NCBI GenBank assembly: GCA_019239775.1
Contig: JAFAZN010000363.1
Location: 16,368 to 80,367, forward strand
Source: Chloroflexota bacterium
GTDB taxonomy: Bacteria > Chloroflexota > UBA6077 > CF-72
Direction: 5' to 3'
Length of the DNA: 64,000 bases
Below the pieces are notes generated by a model that searched no databases, had not been told where the DNA came from, and saw only the letters and a list, made by a program, of their open reading frames with translations. The translations under genes were made by a program, and so were the position numbers. Positions 3,205-11,928 of the stretch are shown piece after piece. The stretch's first letter is position 1. Each line of letters starts with the position of its first letter.

Positions 3205-4272
3205 GTGGAACACACGACGCGTGCCCAGTTCCCACAGGCGCGACCGCGTCGACTGCGCCGTACCGAAAACCTTCGACGCATGGTGCGCGAGACGCATCTC
3301 CGCACGGACGGGTTCATCTACCCGGTCTTTGTCGTGCCTGGCACCGACGTGCACGAAGAGATCACCTCGATGCCTGGCGTGTACCACCAGTCAATCGACC
3401 GTGTAGTCGAGGATGCGCGCGAGGTTGCTGACCTCGGAATACCGGCGATGCTGCTGTTCGGCCTGCCGCCGTTCAAGGACGCCGAGGCTTCCCAGGCGAT
3501 GGCTGTCGATGGCATCGTGCAGCAGGCTTTACGCGCCATCAAGCGTGCCGCACCGTCGCTGGTACTGATTGCCGATACCTGTTTGTGCGAGTACACGAGC
3601 CATGGTCACTGCGGCGTGCTCGGCGCGGCGGGTCAAGAGGGCTTCATCGACAACGATCTCTCGCTCGAGCTGATGAGCCGCACGGCGGTGTCGCAGGCCG
3701 AAGCTGGCGCCGATATCGTGGCGCCCTCCGACATGCTGGATGGTCGAGTTGGCGCCATTCGCGCCGCGCTGGATGCGCGCGGCCTGCACGACACCCTCAT
3801 CATGTCGTACGCGGCCAAGTACGCCAGCGCGTTTTACGGTCCGTTCCGCGACGCAGCCGACTCAGCGCCGCAGTTTGGCGATCGCCGCGGCTATCAGATG
3901 GATCCGCCCAACGGCCGCGAGGCCGTGCGCGAGGTTGGCTACGACCTGGCCGAAGGTGCAGACATCGTGATGGTCAAACCAGCACTGCCATACCTCGACG
4001 TGGTGCACGCCGTGAAAACGGCGTACCCGGATGTGCCGCTGGCGGCCTACAACGTTAGCGGCGAGTACTCGATGCTCAAGGCAGCCGTTGCGAATGGCTG
4101 GCTGGATGAGCGGCGCGCCGTGATGGAAGCGCTTACCGGAATTGTGCGCGCTGGCGCGGACATGATCATCACGTATTACGCCAAGGACGTGGCCCGCTGG
4201 CTGCGCGACGACGACACGTCACACACCGCCACATCGAACGGCGCCTTTCGCGTCGGGCCATCTCACGCGTGA
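3205..4272 (+). CDS. hemB: Delta-aminolevulinic acid dehydratase (porphobilinogen synthase), zinc type
   Basis: 355 aa. It condenses two 5-aminolevulinate molecules to porphobilinogen. The metal site is the cysteine type: Cys126, Cys128 and Cys136 in [14 protein letters not shown] bind zinc. Schiff-base lysines are Lys205 ([17 protein letters not shown]) and Lys258 ([11 protein letters not shown]). The GTG at 3205 is the only start between the in-frame hemA stop and the conserved core; GGAAGGA at 3184-3190 can serve as ribosome binding site, though it is somewhat distant. The stop overlaps hemL as GTGA. Confidence 0.97.
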
Positions 4273-5609
4273 GCGTGCCGCGTGAGGGACTCGCCGCACG
4301 AACACAGAGGTCCGAGGCGCTCTTCGCCGAGGCGCAAAAGCACCTGCCGGGTGGCGTCGACTCCCCGGTAAGGGCTTTCCGCGGCGTGGGCGGCACGCCG
4401 CGCTTCATCGCCCGCGCCAAAGGCTCAGCGGTCTGGGATGAAGACGGCAATCATTATGTCGACTACCTGGCTTCGTGGGGCCCGCTGATCGCGGGCCATG
4501 CCCACCCGGGCGTGGTGGCCGCCATTCAGGAGGCCGCCACCCGCGGCACAAGCTATGGCGCGCCCACCCAGGCCGAGGTCGAGCTGGCGCAACTGGTCAA
4601 GCAAGCATTTCCGAGCATCGAGCTCGTACGGTTCGTCAGCTCGGGCACCGAAGCGACGATGACCGCACTGCGCCTGGCGCGCGCGTTTACCGGGCGCGAC
4701 CTCATCCTCAAGTTTGACGGGGGCTATCACGGCCATGCCGATGGCCTGCTGGTACAGGCTGGCTCAGGGCCGCTGACATTGGGTGCGCCTGATTCGCCGG
4801 GTGTGCCCGCGGTGGCCGCGGCTCAAACGCTGTCGGTGCCCTACAACGACGTGGTTGCGGCGCGCGATGCATTGGCCGCGCACCCGCGACAAGTCGCGGC
4901 GGTGATCGTCGAGCCGGTGGCGGGCAACATGGGGGTGATCCCGCCTGCGCCCGGGTTCCTCGAACACCTGCGCGAGCTCACGCGGGCGGATGGCGCGCTG
5001 TTGATCTTCGACGAGGTCATCACCGGCTTCCGCGTCGCGCTGGGCGGCGCGCAAGAACGTTTTCGCATCCGGCCCGATCTGACGTGCCTCGGCAAAATCG
5101 TTGGTGGCGGCTTGCCCGTAGGTGCCTACGGCGGACGCGCCGACATCATGCAGCAGATCTCGCCGCTCGGGCCCGTGTACCAGGCAGGCACTCTCTCAGG
5201 CAACCCGCTCGCCATGGCAGCAGGCCTTGCCACACTACGACTGCTGACAGAGCCTGGCGTCTACGACCATCTCGAACGGCTCAGCGCTCGCCTGACGGAT
5301 GGACTCGGCAACGCCGCGCTCAGTGCTGGAGTCGCATACACCACCAATCGTGTGGGCTCGATGTTCACGGGCTTCTTCTGCCCCGAACCTGTCACTGACT
5401 ACGCTTCGGCCAAAGCGGCCGATACCCGAAGATATGCGCGCTTCTTCCACGCGATGCTGGAGCACGGCGTCTACCTGGCGCCCTCGCAGTTCGAAGCGGG
5501 GTTCGTGTCGCTGGCGCACACCGAGGCCGATATCGATGCCACACTCGCCGCTGCCGCTGAGGCCTTTGGCGAAGTTACGAGTCGCGAGTCCCGCGTCGCG
5601 GGCGAGTAG
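4269..5609 (+). CDS. hemL: Glutamate-1-semialdehyde 2,1-aminomutase
   Basis: 446 aa, a class III PLP aminotransferase fold. It converts glutamate-1-semialdehyde to 5-aminolevulinate. The N-terminal [17 protein letters not shown] is diagnostic. [12 protein letters not shown] holds the PLP-binding Asp, and Lys276 in [17 protein letters not shown] forms the Schiff base. It starts with GTG overlapping the hemB stop and is the last gene of the heme operon. 71 bases separate it from the glutaredoxin-PDZ gene. Confidence 0.97.
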
Positions 5610-5680: not shown

Positions 5681-6178
5681 GTGACTACAGAAGCCCCTGT
5701 AACGGTCTACACGACCCCCACTTGACCCTGGTGCTCGCGAGCGAAGGAGTTCCTTCGCAAAGAGGGCGTTCCGTTCGAGGTACGCGATGTGTCGGTCGAC
5801 GCCGATGCGGCGCGCGATATGGTGCAGCGCACTCGCCAGATGGGCGTGCCGGTCATTGCCGATGAGCAGGAAGCCATCGTTGGCTTCGACATGCCAAGGC
5901 TACAGCGCATGGCCGCGCGGCATCGACGCGGCGGTGGTCTTGGGCTGAAAGTCACCGATTTCAAGGACGGGCCTGGCGCGTATGTTGGCGGCGTGCGCGA
6001 GGACTCGCCTGGTGCGCGCGCGGGCGTCGAAGTTGGCGACGTGATCCTGGAGCTTTCAGGTCGAGCCGTCTCGGGCGTCGCGGATCTGGAGCAGATCGCG
6101 GCAAGACGGCCGCCAGGCCAGCCCACGAGCATGACCGTCCAGCGCAACGGCGAGACGCGCACGCTGATTCTGCGCTAG
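5681..6178 (+). CDS. Glutaredoxin-PDZ fusion, probable selenoprotein (in-frame TGA at codon 15)
   Basis: Reading from GTG 5681 gives 165 residues if the TGA at 5723-5725 (codon 15) is decoded. Residues 1-75 are a glutaredoxin: beta strand VTVYTTPT, then TGA-Pro-Trp-Cys18 where the family has Cys-Pro-Trp-Cys, then SRAKEFLRKEGVPFEVRDV, the cis-proline motif GVPVI (Pro57) and IVGF. Residues 86-165 are a PDZ domain (GLGLKV, DSPGARAGVEVGDVILEL). The TGA therefore sits exactly at the nucleophilic Cys. A perfect 7-bp hairpin begins 15 nt after it (separate entry). TGA is an ordinary stop for neighbouring genes, so the code is not reassigned. An upstream in-frame TAA at 5660 limits the start to GTG 5681. 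The alternative is a nonsense-mutated Cys glutaredoxin, or translation of only a fragment from 5789. I favour selenocysteine. No selA, selB, selC or selD is visible in the window. Confidence 0.75.
5741..5758 (+). promoter_or_regulatory. Bacterial SECIS-like hairpin
   Basis: GCGAAGG (5741-5747), loop AGTT (5748-5751), CCTTCGC (5752-5758): a perfect 7-bp stem with a 4-nt loop, inside the coding sequence just after the in-frame TGA. The loop begins after 22 intervening nt, and G is its second base. The published bacterial SECIS model, as I recall it, asks for a small apical loop with G among its first two bases, about 16-37 nt after UGA, and this fits. A short lower stem, ctc 5734-5736 with gag 5762-5764, is also possible. 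Confidence 0.7.
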
Positions 6179-6471: not shown

Positions 6472-6500
6472 TTGCACAACCTTTCGTGCAGGTGTATATT
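6472..6500 (+). promoter_or_regulatory. marR operon promoter with overlapping palindromic operator
   Basis: TTGCAC (6472-6477), 17-nt spacer, TATATT (6495-6500): a near-consensus sigma-70-type promoter with start expected near 6507. TGCAC-N8-GTGCA (6473-6490) is an inverted repeat covering the -35 and half of the spacer, exactly where an autorepressing MarR dimer would block RNA polymerase. The sequence is seen; the operator role is inference. Confidence 0.65.
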
Positions 6501-6537
6501 TCGCTTCAACCAAACTATTTACGCTGCCCGAAGGACC

Positions 6538-7011
6538 ATGGACGAAGAACGCATCCAACGCATACATCGCATCCTCTCCTGCTCCGAGGCGCTCGTGCAT
6601 GGCTTCAATCCCAGTCGCGATCGCGCCTGGCTGCGGCTGGATCTCACCATGCCGCAGCTCAAAGCACTGATTTACGTCACCAAGAACCAGAACTCGACGA
6701 GCGGCCAGATCGCCGCGAGCCTGGGTGTTGGCCTCTCCACCATTACCGGCATCGTTGATCGGCTGGCCGAACAAAGCCTGGTCACTCGCCGCGAGGATCC
6801 GCGCGATCGACGCGTCACGCGCGTGCTGCCGACTCCGACTGGCGCCGAGCTGGTCGACGAGCTGATCCAGTACCGCAACGAGGTGGTGACCGCGATCCTG
6901 TCGCAGCTCGACCCCGACCAACTGCAAGTGGTGGAGTCCGCCTTTCAGTATCTCCTCGACGCCGCCGCCAAGCTCGACCGCGAGCGCAATCACGCAGGAG
7001 CCGTGGCATGA
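6538..7011 (+). CDS. MarR family transcriptional regulator of the efflux operon
   Basis: 157 aa winged-helix regulator. LTMPQLKALIYV, TSGQIAASLGVGLSTITGIVDRL (recognition helix) and the wing VTRREDPRDRRVTRVLPT are typical of MarR. The reading frame is open further upstream, but ATG 6538 is the start that suits the promoter at 6472-6500 and the family N-terminus; GAAGGA lies just before it, unusually close. The stop overlaps the next start as ATGA, so it is translationally coupled to the efflux genes. It probably represses its own operon and is released by a small-molecule ligand. Confidence 0.92.
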   Translation: MDEERIQRIHRILSCSEALVHGFNPSRDRAWLRLDLTMPQLKALIYVTKNQNSTSGQIAASLGVGLSTITGIVDRLAEQSLVTRREDPRDRRVTRVLPTPTGAELVDELIQYRNEVVTAILSQLDPDQLQVVESAFQYLLDAAAKLDRERNHAGAVA

Positions 7012-9434
7012 CTCATCTCAAACTCATCGGTGCAACCACAGCTGTGCTCATTTTCGTAGCTGGCTGCGGCCCTATCGCCGTGCCCGGCAGCTCCAGTGGG
7101 TCGCAGGCGCAGGCCATCAGCGTGCCGGCCGCGACGGCGCAGCATGGGGACATTCAGCAAACCCTGACCTATAGCGGTGACGTCCGCGCCAAGGACCAGA
7201 TCACCGTGTTGCCGAAGGCATCGGGTCGCGTACAACAGGTGCTCGTCGACATCGGCTCTTCCGTGCACGCGGGCGACGTGGTAGCGGAGCTGGAGCAAGA
7301 CTCGCCCGAAATCGCCGTCCTGCAGGCACGCGCCAATCTGGCCGCGGCGCAGGCAAAGTTGGCAACCATCCAGGCTGGCGCCAAGCCAGACGACGTGGCC
7401 GCCGCACAAGAGGCCGTGGCGCAACAGCAGGCGCGCCTCGACTCAATGTTGGCCGGTGGGCGCCAGGAAGACGTTGCCGCCGCCCAGGCCGCCGTGGCCG
7501 CGCAATCCGCCAAGCTGAACTTAATGCTCAGCGGTGGTCGCGCCGAAACGGTCGCGCAGGCTCAAGCGGCCGTCGACGCGGCACAGCAGAAGCTCGCGTT
7601 GCTTCAAAAAGGTGCGACTGACGATGTGCGCCAGGCAGCCGCCAGCGCGGTGAGTGCCGACATGGCCCAGGTCACCGCGACGGAAGCCTCGTATGCCGCG
7701 TTGGGCGGTACCTCAGCAGCAGACCTGGAGCAACTACAAGCCCAGGTTGATGCGCTCCAGGCCCAGGTGAACGCCGGGCAAACGGCGGTGAGCTCAGCCG
7801 ATGCGGCTCTCCAAAACCAGGTCGGCTCCAGTGCGGCTGACGTGCAGGCGGCGCAAACAGCGTACGACCAGGCCCAGGCGCAGCTCACGGCTGCTCAGGC
7901 GGCGTTGAACCAGGCTCAGAATCCGACGCAACTCTCAATCGCCCAGGCGCAAGCAGCCCTCACGGCTGCGCAAGCGCAGGAGGCCGGCGCCGAATCGAAC
8001 CAGACGGCGCTGGAGCAGAAGGCCGCGGGTTTGTGCGCGCCCTTGATCAGTCCAATCACCGGTCAGGCGTACCAGCAGCCGAACAGTACCGCGTGCGGTG
8101 TGGCCAAGAGTGCGGCTGATGAAGCGGTGCAGGCTGGCAATGCCGCAATCGACGCCGCCCAGGGCCAGCTCGACCAGCTTCGCCGCGGCGGTGCCCCGGC
8201 CACGCTGGCGGCAACCCAGGCGCAGGCCACCAGCGCTCAGGCACTGGTCAAAGCCACCAAGGCGCGGCTCGATGCGCTCACCAACGGTGGTGTGCAGGCA
8301 CAGCGTGCGCAGCTTCAGGCCGCGCACGATCAGGCCGTCAGCCAACTCACCCAGGCACAGGACAATTTGAGTGTCGCGCAGGCACGCGTGCAGGCCGCGC
8401 AAAACGGCACGCTCGATGCTCAGCGCAAAGCCGCGCAGGCACAGGTCGACGCCTCCCGTGAGAAGTTGAAGGCGGACCAGGCGCACCTGGACCAGATCTC
8501 AGCCGGCCCCCAGGACGAGGACGTGCAGGCGGCCCAGGACGCGGTCACCCAGGCGCAGCAACAGCTGGCGCTCGCAACACAACCTGCCACGACGCAGGAC
8601 ATCGAGGCGCAGCGCGCTCTCGTCAACCAGGCACAGGAGCAGCTGCAGAAGGCGCAGCAGCCCTACACCGACTACGACATCCAGCAGCAACAACACATGG
8701 TCGCGCAGGCTGAAGCGCAGCTGCGCGGCCGCCAGAATCCGTATACCGACCAGGACGTTCAAGCGGCGCAGGCCGGTGTCGATCAGGCGCAGGCTGCGCT
8801 CGAGCTTGCACAGCTGGGCGTGCGCGAGACGCAGGTCGTCGCACCAGTAGACGGCATCGTGTTCGATCGGCAGGTTTCGCCGGGCGCACTCGTTGGACCG
8901 ACCTCGCCGATCATCACCTTGATCCCACCAGCCCTCGAAGTCGCAATCAACGTCGACGAGGCGCAGCTGGGCAACGTGACGCAGGGGCAGCAGGTGTCGC
9001 TGCAGGTACCGGCCTATCCGGATCAGACCTTCAACGGCACCGTCACGGCGGTTGCCCCCGGCATCGATCAGAAAACGCGCACCGCAAGCGTGCGCATCCA
9101 ACCGCAAGACGATGCGGGTAAGCTGAAGCCGGGCATGCTGGCCCAGGTCAACATCATCACCGCGACGCGCAGTGATGTGCTGCTGGTGCCGCGTGAAGCA
9201 ATCGTCGGCACGCCCAGCACCAACGCACCGGCCACACTGGTCACGCTGGATGGTGGGCATGCCGCGCGAGTAACAGTTCAGCTCGGGCTGATTGGCGACC
9301 GAACGGTCCAGGTCAGCAGCGGTCTGAATGACGGCCAGGTGGTGGCCGTTGGCAATGCAAACGGGTTGAACACAGGTGACGCGGTCGTCCCGCAGCTGCG
9401 GCCGACGCTCGCCTCGACGGTGGGAGTCCAGTAA
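7008..9434 (+). CDS. HlyD/RND-type efflux adaptor lipoprotein with very long coiled-coil hairpin
   Basis: 808 aa, about twice the usual adaptor length. A lipoprotein signal peptide ends at lipobox Cys20 (FVAGC). Residues about 45-105 are the first half of the barrel-sandwich (lipoyl-like) domain (KASGRVQQVLVDIGSSVHAG). Residues 110-600 are Ala/Gln-rich alpha-helical coiled coil with near-repeats of about 35 residues; examples are the units around 120-205 (GGRQEDVAAAQAAVAAQ) and around 500-600 (NPYTDQDVQAAQAGVDQA). Residues 606-660 complete the lipoyl domain (VVAPVDGIVFDRQVSPGALV), followed by beta-barrel and membrane-proximal domains. The middle of the hairpin carries Cys343 and Cys363 in a Pro/Gly/Gln-rich turn, probably a disulfide-closed tip. 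It is presumably the adaptor for the pump encoded at 10324-11928. Confidence 0.88.
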   Translation: MTHLKLIGATTAVLIFVAGCGPIAVPGSSSGSQAQAISVPAATAQHGDIQQTLTYSGDVRAKDQITVLPKASGRVQQVLVDIGSSVHAGDVVAELEQDSPEIAVLQARANLAAAQAKLATIQAGAKPDDVAAAQEAVAQQQARLDSMLAGGRQEDVAAAQAAVAAQSAKLNLMLSGGRAETVAQAQAAVDAAQQKLALLQKGATDDVRQAAASAVSADMAQVTATEASYAALGGTSAADLEQLQAQVDALQAQVNAGQTAVSSADAALQNQVGSSAADVQAAQTAYDQAQAQLTAAQAALNQAQNPTQLSIAQAQAALTAAQAQEAGAESNQTALEQKAAGLCAPLISPITGQAYQQPNSTACGVAKSAADEAVQAGNAAIDAAQGQLDQLRRGGAPATLAATQAQATSAQALVKATKARLDALTNGGVQAQRAQLQAAHDQAVSQLTQAQDNLSVAQARVQAAQNGTLDAQRKAAQAQVDASREKLKADQAHLDQISAGPQDEDVQAAQDAVTQAQQQLALATQPATTQDIEAQRALVNQAQEQLQKAQQPYTDYDIQQQQHMVAQAEAQLRGRQNPYTDQDVQAAQAGVDQAQAALELAQLGVRETQVVAPVDGIVFDRQVSPGALVGPTSPIITLIPPALEVAINVDEAQLGNVTQGQQVSLQVPAYPDQTFNGTVTAVAPGIDQKTRTASVRIQPQDDAGKLKPGMLAQVNIITATRSDVLLVPREAIVGTPSTNAPATLVTLDGGHAARVTVQLGLIGDRTVQVSSGLNDGQVVAVGNANGLNTGDAVVPQLRPTLASTVGVQ

Positions 9435-10310
9435 ATGAGCGTGCAAGTACAGGGGCCGCAGCAGCGGCCCGTTGCTGAACCAAATCTTGACGGTCATGGC
9501 CGTCCGGCCAGCATCGAAACCGATGCGCCAGTCGCGCCGAGCCGTCCAACTGGACCAGGGCCCGCACCCGCGGCCGCGGCCGTCGAGGTGCCGCCGCCCA
9601 CGCCGCGGCGACGACCTGCGTTCCTCAGTCGGCGGGTACTGCTGCCTGTTCTGGCCCTCATCGTAATTGTCGTCGGCCTGTTCGGCTTCAACGCCTGGCG
9701 TGACAGCGCGCTCTACGTCTCGACTGACAATGCTCAACTCAGCGGCCAGCCAGTTCAGGTTGGCGCGATGAACGCTGGGAAGGTTGACGCGATCATGCCT
9801 GGCATTGGCGCGGCCGTGCACAAGGGCGATGTGATCGCTCAAGTGGCGCTGCCGTCCCAGGTCGGCGTCGGCCAGGGCGGTCAGCCCAAGATGGGCTTCC
9901 TTGGCGCAGGCGATACCCACGTCGACGTGACGGCGCCGGTCGACGGCATCGTCATCGCCGAGCCAGTGGCTGTCGGTGCGACGGTTGCCGCTGGGCAGCC
10001 GATCGTGTCGGTCGTCGATCCTTCAGCGCTCTATGTGAACGCGAATATCGAAGAGACCAACATCGCCCGCGTTCGGGTCGGCCAACCAGTCACGGTCCAT
10101 GTCGATGCCCTCGGAGCGGACATTCCCGGCAAAGTCGAAGCCGTGACCCCTGCGACGGCAGGCACGTTTTCGATCCTACCGAGCTCGAATACCTCGGGCA
10201 ACTTCACCAAGGTCACCCAGTTGGTCCCCGTACGTATCTCTGTGAACCTGGGGAATCAACCCATGCTCGTGGGCGCCAACGTGGAAGTGAAAATCCGTGT
10301 TGGTGACTAG
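9435..10310 (+). CDS. EmrA-like membrane-fusion (HlyD family) protein without coiled-coil hairpin
   Basis: 291 aa. A Pro-rich cytoplasmic N-terminus of about 60 residues precedes a single membrane segment (about 63-85). The EmrA-type signature LYVSTDNAQLSGQPVQVG and the lipoyl half-motif VTAPVDGIVIAEPVAVGA follow, then a beta-barrel domain (LYVNANIEETNIARV). Between the two lipoyl halves only a short Gly-rich linker is present where EmrA has its alpha-helical hairpin. It directly follows the giant adaptor and precedes the pump by 13 bases, so the operon supplies one adaptor with an extreme hairpin and one with none. Confidence 0.88.
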   Translation: MSVQVQGPQQRPVAEPNLDGHGRPASIETDAPVAPSRPTGPGPAPAAAAVEVPPPTPRRRPAFLSRRVLLPVLALIVIVVGLFGFNAWRDSALYVSTDNAQLSGQPVQVGAMNAGKVDAIMPGIGAAVHKGDVIAQVALPSQVGVGQGGQPKMGFLGAGDTHVDVTAPVDGIVIAEPVAVGATVAAGQPIVSVVDPSALYVNANIEETNIARVRVGQPVTVHVDALGADIPGKVEAVTPATAGTFSILPSSNTSGNFTKVTQLVPVRISVNLGNQPMLVGANVEVKIRVGD

Positions 10311-10323
10311 GACCTGAAGCCCG

Positions 10324-11928
10324 ATGGCTGCTGCCAATCCGCCGATGGGCGCGGTCGCCCTGCCAGCGCTGCCGCGCTTCGGACTGCTTCGCGGCCTCGA
10401 CTACCAGTGGCAGGTGCTCATCTGCGCCGTGGTCGGCACCTTCATGGTGATGCTCGACCAGACGGTGGTGAATATCGCGCTGCCCAAGATCACGACCGTC
10501 TTTGGCGTCGGTGTGCACGAGACGCAGCTGGTCGTCACCAGCTACATGCTGGCGCTGGCAGTGATCATGCCTGCGACCGGGTACCTGAGCGACACCTTCG
10601 GCACCAAGCGGCTGTACTTGATCACGATGGCCCTGTTCACAGGCGGAAGCCTGCTGTGCGGGCTGGCCTGGAACAACACCAGTCTGGTCGCGTTTCGCGT
10701 GATTCAGGGCCTGGGTGGCGGCATGATGTCGCCGCTGGGCATGACCATGCTGTTCCAGGTGGTCCCACCGCAGCGGCGGAACACGTTCATGGGCTTCTTT
10801 GGCCTACCGCTGATGCTCGCTCCGGTGCTTGGCCCAACATTGGGTGGCTACCTGGTCGAGTACATCGACTGGCGCGTGATCTTCACCTTGAACGTACCGG
10901 TGGGCGTGCTGGGCCTGTTCCTCGGCCTCACGCTGCTGCGCGAGACTGAGCATGTTCCCGGACTGAAGTTCGACCTTCGCGGGTTCATGCTCTCGGCGGT
11001 TGGCTTCAGCGCGCTCCTACTCGGGTTCACCGATGCTGCGACTGATGGATGGACCGCTCCTGGCATCCTGGTGCGCTTCGGCATCGGCATCGTGGCGCTG
11101 GGCCTATGGGTCTGGGTTGAACTCACCGATGAGCACCCGCTGCTCGAGCTGCGGCTGTTCAAGATTCCGATCTTCACGTTCTCTGCCCTTGTGACGTTCG
11201 TGCTGACGGTGGGCATGTTCGGAGCCATGCTCGTGCTGCCGCTGTTCCTGCAGAATCTGCGCGGGCTTGGCGCGGCTGAGTCAGGCCTGATCCTGGTAAG
11301 TCAGGTGCTGCCGATGACCGTGGCGATGCCGCTGGTTGGGCGTCTGGTGGACAAGGTTGGCGCGCGCGCCGTGATTTTGACCGGCTTGCCGCTGCTCGCG
11401 ATCACCACGTGGCAGTTTGGGCTGTTGGACATGAACACGTCAGACATGACGATTCGTCTGTGGCTCGCCGCGCGTGGCTGCGCGATGGGGCTCGTGATGA
11501 TGCCGTCGATGACGGCGGGGCTGAATGCGGTGCCGCTGCCGTTGATGAGTCGAGCATCGTCGATGAGCAACGTGATGCGGCAGGTCTTTGGCGCCTTCGG
11601 CACCGCGATCATCGTGACGGTGCTGCAGGTGCGCCAGACGTTCCACTCGGCGATCCTGGCGCAGACGGTCACCCCAGACAACCTGCCGCTGCAACAACTG
11701 ATGAACTCAGCGCAGCAGTGGGGCGTGGCTCAGGGCCTCGATTCGGCCCAGTCCTCGGCAATGGGCGTGATGATGGCAGCGAAACAGGTGGCCCTGAGCG
11801 CCGCCGTCATGGGCTTCGACGACGTCTTCCGCCTGACCGCGGTCATCACCCTGCTGGCCGTGATCCCGGCTGTCTTCATGAAGACGACCCGCACCCCAAG
11901 CCGAGGCCCAACCATCATCGCCGACTGA
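10324..11928 (+). CDS. DHA2 (EmrB/QacA) family MFS multidrug transporter, 14 TM
   Basis: 534 aa proton-driven drug exporter. MLDQTVVNIALPKI in TM1, the loop motif GYLSDTFGTKRLYL (motif A) and LGPTLGGYLVEYIDWR (motif C) mark the 14-TM DHA2 family to which EmrB belongs. It is the energised inner component of the efflux system, encoded downstream of marR and two adaptors. The stop codon lies only 3 nt from the 3' end of the oppositely oriented tRNA-Arg gene. Confidence 0.93.
   Translation: MAAANPPMGAVALPALPRFGLLRGLDYQWQVLICAVVGTFMVMLDQTVVNIALPKITTVFGVGVHETQLVVTSYMLALAVIMPATGYLSDTFGTKRLYLITMALFTGGSLLCGLAWNNTSLVAFRVIQGLGGGMMSPLGMTMLFQVVPPQRRNTFMGFFGLPLMLAPVLGPTLGGYLVEYIDWRVIFTLNVPVGVLGLFLGLTLLRETEHVPGLKFDLRGFMLSAVGFSALLLGFTDAATDGWTAPGILVRFGIGIVALGLWVWVELTDEHPLLELRLFKIPIFTFSALVTFVLTVGMFGAMLVLPLFLQNLRGLGAAESGLILVSQVLPMTVAMPLVGRLVDKVGARAVILTGLPLLAITTWQFGLLDMNTSDMTIRLWLAARGCAMGLVMMPSMTAGLNAVPLPLMSRASSMSNVMRQVFGAFGTAIIVTVLQVRQTFHSAILAQTVTPDNLPLQQLMNSAQQWGVAQGLDSAQSSAMGVMMAAKQVALSAAVMGFDDVFRLTAVITLLAVIPAVFMKTTRTPSRGPTIIAD

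Follow-up and report, generated by a model that had tools for sequence, protein, structure and literature searches.

A predicted selenoprotein of Chloroflexota in which a glutaredoxin is fused to an HtrA-like PDZ domain

The window considered here, a stretch of 64,000 nucleotides from a draft Chloroflexota genome, contains a gene whose in-frame UGA at codon 15 is, with high confidence, decoded as selenocysteine (Sec). Judged by sequence comparison, the product would be a 165-residue and probably cytosolic selenoprotein, in which a glutaredoxin (Grx) with a U-P-W-C active site is followed by an HtrA-like PDZ domain. The original prediction of a probable new selenoprotein, a glutaredoxin, is therefore supported as regards selenium and has to be amended as regards the protein, since this is a glutaredoxin-PDZ fusion and not a plain glutaredoxin. 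Neither the PDZ domain nor the SECIS-like hairpin at 5741-5758 had been described at that stage. The features of the locus are as follows.

4269..5609, + strand: upstream neighbour, a class-III aminotransferase read as HemL, at the end of a hemC-D-A-B-L run and 71 bp before the Grx-PDZ start
5681..6178, + strand: predicted Sec-glutaredoxin-PDZ gene, with GTG start, TAG stop, 165 codons and one internal TGA
5699..5860, + strand: glutaredoxin domain, Pfam match over residues 7-60 (PF00462, E 7.1e-17), with the fold extending to about residue 81 in the AlphaFold model
5723..5725, + strand: in-frame TGA, predicted selenocysteine 15 and nucleophile of U-P-W-C (TGA in 31 aligned Grx-PDZ loci, Cys codon in 9)
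5732..5734, + strand: TGC, predicted resolving Cys18 (invariant, 51/51 aligned sequences)
5741..5758, + strand: predicted bacterial SECIS hairpin GCGAAGG-AGUU-CCUUCGC (7 bp, loop AGUU, 22 nt from the UGA, -10.4 kcal/mol)
5789..6178, + strand: truncated 129-aa ORF, active site missing (ORF list; public protein set entry P0007)
5924..6166, + strand: HtrA-like PDZ domain, residues 82-162 (PF13180/PF00595/PF17820; Foldseek)

The frame from GTG 5681 to the TAG at 6178 reads VTTEAPVTVYTTPT-TGA-PWCSRAKEFLRK... and is open apart from the TGA at 5723-5725. GTG 5681 is the sole ATG, GTG or TTG codon between the upstream in-frame stop and this TGA. Reading of the frame and the Pfam match together confirm the glutaredoxin frame first proposed, with TGA in the place of the CPxC nucleophile: when Cys is substituted for the TGA, the Glutaredoxin profile PF00462 matches residues 7-60 at 61.8 bits (cut-off 22.9) and, in the same frame, PDZ_2 matches residues 85-162 at 49.6 bits (cut-off 27), with the PDZ profiles PF13180, PF00595 and PF17820 all above cut-off. 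Gene calling from 5789, as had been foreseen, loses the active site, and it is this 129-aa form that both the ORF list and the public protein set contain.

The search for relatives covered 400 genomes drawn from Chloroflexota and gave 86 matches at E 1e-15 or better, in 82 genomes; codon and domains were read for all 86. Both glutaredoxin and PDZ are encoded by 40 matches from 39 genomes, with TGA at codon 15 in 31 and TGC or TGT in nine, so that homologues of both kinds to be looked for under the original prediction do exist. The remaining 46 matches are glutaredoxins without PDZ, 45 of them with Cys and one with TGA. Sec thus goes with the PDZ fusion, TGA being found in 31/40 fused compared with 1/46 unfused matches (Fisher P 3e-14, a value that ignores kinship among loci). 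The nearest named relative, L054, comes from a Chloroflexota metagenome assembly and is 84% identical over the protein. An alignment of 51 sequences was assembled from the 31 Sec loci, seven Cys loci and 13 of the 14 full-length Cys proteins of a first protein search, the same 13 entering alignment A4 and the tree. The aligned locus set is without L052 and L053 (match over the PDZ part only), L123 (Grx only) and the Cys loci L102 and L109, the last two being included in the count of nine Cys Grx-PDZ loci. Both domains are matched in Pfam at E 0.001 in 51/51 aligned sequences, and the Cys three residues past the TGA or Cys codon is kept in every one.

Among the 31 Sec loci, pairwise diversity at first, second and third codon positions is 0.18/0.21/0.62 over the eight codons before the TGA and 0.24/0.31/0.52 over the 16 codons after it. 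The low first- and second-position diversity on both sides indicates protein coding on both sides, which bears out the claim that coding sequence continues across the TGA. These data weigh against the explanation that the gene is a pseudogene in decay, or the TGA a sequencing or assembly error, with only the truncated PDZ protein from 5789 being made. The public protein set does hold the truncated form and the assembly is a draft metagenome, but TGA stands at the same codon in 31 distinct Chloroflexota loci, in the window's genome and 30 others, seven of them single-contig; sequencing error is therefore untenable for the pattern. In close relatives the gene is intact and carries an in-frame TGA or TGC/TGT, with neither frameshift nor degradation. 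Together with the invariant Cys18 and a hairpin under synonymous constraint, described below, this makes a pseudogene or an error extremely improbable, and decoding of the UGA as Sec remains the preferred reading.

Genome G287 has two copies, a Sec-type gene (L110) and a Cys-type paralogue (L109, G287:C3:253374-257892). The paralogue has an in-frame TAG in the interdomain linker, which could reflect either decay or recoding. UAG was considered as an alternative Sec codon and rejected: both matches with one TAG are Cys forms; in L100 the TAG lies just ahead of the start, and in L109 it falls in the linker between the domains.

The published model of the bacterial SECIS element specifies a loop of 3-9 nt, a stem of 4-16 bp and a G in the first two loop positions, with a spacing of 16-37 nt and an MFE <= -7.5 (PMC13188914, Fig 2 legend). 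The window hairpin falls within every limit set out in that legend, its G being second in the loop. A strict, perfect-stem form of the legend's model accepts 21 of the 31 Sec loci and rejects 10, and among seven Cys loci it accepts one, by way of a different hairpin. L026 has a stem mismatch. Two registers offset by a single base are used, and in one or the other each of the 31 Sec loci forms at least seven of the eight pairs: register A, with the AGUU loop, in seven loci of the window's clade, and register B, GCGAAAGA-GUU-UCUUUCGC and variants, in 24. The SECIS stem is thus shifted by one base between clades (AGUU in L024-L030, GUU in L032-L116), with the peptide unmoved. The stand-alone Sec-glutaredoxin without PDZ, L098 (G025:C126), has a hairpin of the same type with 7/8 pairs.

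Hairpin statistics were computed for the 31 Sec loci and seven of the nine Cys loci. In the better register, Sec loci form a mean of 7.74 of 8 pairs, compared with 5.76 under synonymous re-coding, and Cys loci form 4.57, compared with 4.62; the two further Cys loci (L102 and L109) have 5 and 4 pairs. Covariation was assessed in the 24 register-B Sec loci, a set without the seven register-A loci of the window's clade. None of 500 shuffles attained the proportion of paired cells in this set (96.4%), its 20 cells altered on both strands of the stem or its covariation score of 0.267; slid versions of the helix pair 68.2% at most, and the helix predicted by RNAalifold is identical. Double-sided change is seen at three pairs in the 24 loci (for example, GTG/TCA vs GCG/TCG, and GAG/TTT vs GGG/TTC), a count not above shuffles (reached by 88/500), nor are the six further pair types (493/500). 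Rfam gave no credible match at the hairpin site, only one chance sRNA match, and as a whole the 73 nt that follow the TGA show no exceptional stability (z -0.82). In the seven Cys loci 44.6% of cells pair. As far as the sequences indicate, the predicted hairpin is lost in the Cys forms.

A search for the Sec machinery had been set as a check, with its absence as a ground for giving up the selenoprotein reading; all four components are present in the window's genome, a 7.2 Mb draft in 507 contigs that is 91% complete with 5.09% contamination. Profile searches detected selA (551 bits, cut-off 267.9) and the adjoining selB (344 bits, cut-off 242.25) on contig C101, selD (375 bits, cut-off 125) on contig C231, and a tRNA-Sec with anticodon TCA (66.7 bits, gathering score 47) on contig C11. 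In this draft the sel genes sit on contigs other than the window's; the G+C content of the sel loci, 65-66%, is close to the 64% of the window. The selD gene (L012, G000:C231:24153-28082) encodes a predicted selenoprotein itself, with an in-frame TGA in the motif HGAGUACK.

Across the phylum, selB scores above cut-off in 27/31 genomes that carry the TGA form and in 279/369 others (P 0.19), an enrichment that is not significant because 306/400 sampled Chloroflexota genomes have selB anyway. Presence of the Sec machinery is consistent with Sec decoding, and it is not a discriminating test at this scale. The carriers without selB are the drafts G017, G022, G029 and G041 (57-88% complete), of which the last three have selA. 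In G017, an 88% complete draft whose locus L034 has the TGA form and the hairpin, neither selA nor selB was found, which could be due either to an assembly gap or to a genome losing Sec decoding.

The presence of this machinery also bears on whether a suppressor or a reassigned code might insert a different residue at the TGA, namely Trp, Gly or Cys. Readthrough of some kind is required on either view, and the Cys homologues show that Cys works at this position. However, TGA is the ordinary stop of hemC, hemD, hemA and hemB, just as first reported, and of the MarR and MFS genes in the window; moreover, the hairpin accompanies TGA and not Cys codons. With Sec machinery at hand in the same genome, we consider insertion of a different amino acid highly unlikely.

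UGA-Sec decoding is leaky, and both the window and the database relatives have candidate start codons past the TGA. Both points could be counted for a two-product arrangement, in which a short leader ends at the UGA, the PDZ protein is started separately and the UGA serves as a selenium- or redox-sensing attenuator. Against this, the same residues form one uninterrupted active site in the nine Cys Grx-PDZ loci, and the TGA does not interrupt the conservation of the strand and the CPxC motif. Such an attenuator is accordingly given very little credence, although the truncated protein may arise as a minor by-product; a single Sec-containing protein is the reading followed below.

In the AlphaFold model (mean pLDDT 92) both domains are confidently predicted, and a pTM of 0.62 suggests that their relative placement may be flexible. 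The best Foldseek matches of the PDZ domain are HtrA-family proteases, including MucD, DegQ and DegS. In a test for HtrA S1-C proteases, no trypsin-like protease domain occurs among the Pfam matches of the Grx-PDZ protein. About six residues precede the first glutaredoxin strand in the model, which leaves no room for a signal peptide, and the protein is probably cytosolic.

A mechanism can be proposed on this basis. SelB would bind the predicted hairpin, whose loop lies 22 nt downstream, and would bring Sec-tRNA(UCA) to the UGA; at low selenium, or where SelB binds weakly, translation would end at codon 15. In the full-length protein, Sec15, as a selenolate, would be the nucleophile that attacks an oxidised group of a client, such as a disulfide, and the resulting selenenylsulfide would be resolved by Cys18. 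By binding C-termini or exposed strands of particular partners, the PDZ domain could keep the redox domain at their side. As to the source of electrons, a thioredoxin reductase is present in the window's genome (357.8 bits, cut-off 343.45), and the two gamma-glutamylcysteine ligase families searched there, PF04107 and PF04262, gave no match; glutathione would therefore be the less likely reductant, and thioredoxin reductase or a different thiol the more likely one.

The gene neighbourhood says little about the client. Downstream of the Grx-PDZ gene, window positions 6472-11928 hold a MarR regulator, two HlyD-type adaptors and an MFS transporter, an efflux-like cluster in which one of the adaptors is 808 aa long and rich in Ala and Gln. 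Judged by eye, one congener, L054, retains the hem-Grx-MarR order, with similar ORF beginnings downstream; the same inspection of ORF beginnings did not reveal it in L127, L124-L126, L128, L111 or the short flanks of others. Partner and pathway are thus guesses, since no neighbour shared beyond one congener was recognised.

The exchange between Sec and Cys has been frequent. On a tree of 58 sequences, made up of the 51 Grx-PDZ sequences and seven stand-alone glutaredoxins, 11 Sec/Cys changes are needed, and at least eight of them are forced by well supported branches. Two Cys sequences, P0002 (81% identity) and P0003 (78%), stand beside the window protein on the tree. We infer that the Sec form was early and then repeatedly lost, on a 58-sequence tree that leaves the direction of each change unsettled.

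Public databases give a different picture of the family. In the first protein search, 106 of the best 120 of 589 entries begin downstream of the codon and the other 14 are full length, all with Cys; in a second search, with a distant member as query, 99 of the best 120 of 248 are truncated and 21 are full length with Cys. Across both searches, 205 of the 240 listed relatives start past the codon, and Cys is present in all 35 that are full length. The truncated entries listed include many named 'S1-C subfamily serine protease', presumably because of the HtrA-like PDZ, as well as 'PDZ domain-containing protein', and Dehalogenimonas is represented among them. Entry P0122 bears the name of a glutaredoxin-like protein from Dehalogenimonas sp. 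WBC-2, and the corresponding locus (L043, genome G055) has TGA; P0153 is named for D. formicexedens, a cultured isolate, and its locus (L115, genome G262) likewise has TGA. Since Dehalogenimonas genomes carry the TGA form, the prediction is testable in culture or in existing proteomes. For D. alkenigignens, the available text of the genome paper names Sec machinery, selenophosphate synthase and formate dehydrogenase, and the word 'glutaredoxin' does not occur in that text (PMC4918011).

Taken together, these observations lead us to propose, as a view whose chances we put at about even, a family of PDZ-guided selenoredoxins spread in Chloroflexota. In such a family, the HtrA-like PDZ domain would steer a Sec-glutaredoxin to the C-termini of chosen cytosolic proteins, Sec would go with the PDZ fusion, and an early Sec would probably have been swapped repeatedly for Cys while the hairpin decayed; databases would be hiding hundreds of members as headless 'serine proteases'. 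Automatic annotation loses the active site of this enzyme, and a two-domain architecture would be added to the known selenoproteome. The phylum itself emerges as a large and little-read selenium user, with selB in 306/400 genomes compared with the three selenoproteins counted in Chloroflexota by a 2006 survey, according to its Table 2 (PMC1794560). Why selenium is retained in an enzyme can be studied here as a natural experiment, in the repeated Sec-Cys switches with their gained or lost hairpins and in the association of Sec with the PDZ fusion.

Several known systems resemble parts of this protein. To the HtrA family (DegP, DegS, DegQ and MucD) it is related by the sequence and fold of its PDZ domain, which matches a DegP-like chain at E 2e-14; it differs in being without a protease domain and without room for a signal peptide. 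The closest solved glutaredoxin chains are 7c10_A (E 1.6e-12) and 7c12_A (E 4.2e-11), which we take to come from the clostridium with a studied Sec-glutaredoxin. These chains are single-domain proteins of 84 aa, in contrast to the window protein with its C-terminal PDZ and its place in Chloroflexota.

Sec-containing glutaredoxin (Grx, PF00462, UxxC), which shares the glutaredoxin fold and the U-x-x-C motif with the Grx-PDZ protein, is listed as experimentally verified in Table 1 of a review (PMC13188914). The novelty originally claimed consequently does not extend to the idea of a Sec-glutaredoxin, and it holds for the Grx-PDZ architecture and its place in Chloroflexota. According to the text available, the new families described in the Sargasso Sea study included Sec-glutaredoxin (PMC1088965), and a further count of Sec-glutaredoxin or Grx-like UxxC sequences was made in ocean metagenomes (PMC2398784). 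A search of the accessible selenoprotein, glutaredoxin and Dehalogenimonas literature, with subscription papers and supplements outside its scope, found no report of a Grx-PDZ selenoprotein or of its spread in Chloroflexota.

It is nevertheless conceivable, if rather unlikely, that the protein belongs to a glutaredoxin-like selenoprotein family that has already been catalogued (UXX-star, ocean Grx-like or Trx7/PDZ), an explanation compatible with Sec decoding at codon 15. The ocean UxxC sequences, so far as described in the available text (PMC2398784), could include Grx-PDZ fragments, and Sec-Grx and Trx7/PDZ both appear in Table 1 of the review (PMC13188914). The best NCBIfam match among those listed is GlrX_YruB TIGR02196 (77.5 bits, below its cut-off of 88.55), and the second is Uxx-star NF041212 (57.2 bits, below its cut-off of 66); yet none of the best 25 of 40 matching NCBIfam models scores above its own cut-off. 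The likeness to the UXX-star models NF041212, NF041114 and NF041211 and to TIGR02196 lies in the glutaredoxin-like domain, for which the YruB type is the best match. These models, however, span 70-74 positions, contain no PDZ and all score below cut-off, and set against the UXX-star models the second active-site residue of Grx-PDZ is Cys in 51/51 aligned sequences. The Trx7/PDZ selenoprotein catalogued with CxxU (PMC13188914 Table 1; available text of PMC9312934) and modelled as NF041199 also combines a thioredoxin-fold and a PDZ domain in one predicted selenoprotein, but the window protein matches this model by its PDZ part alone, at 29.8 bits against a cut-off of 300. NF041199 is a 390-position model with a Thioredoxin_7 domain and Sec at the second site, CxxU, whereas the protein described here would place Sec at the first, as UPWC.
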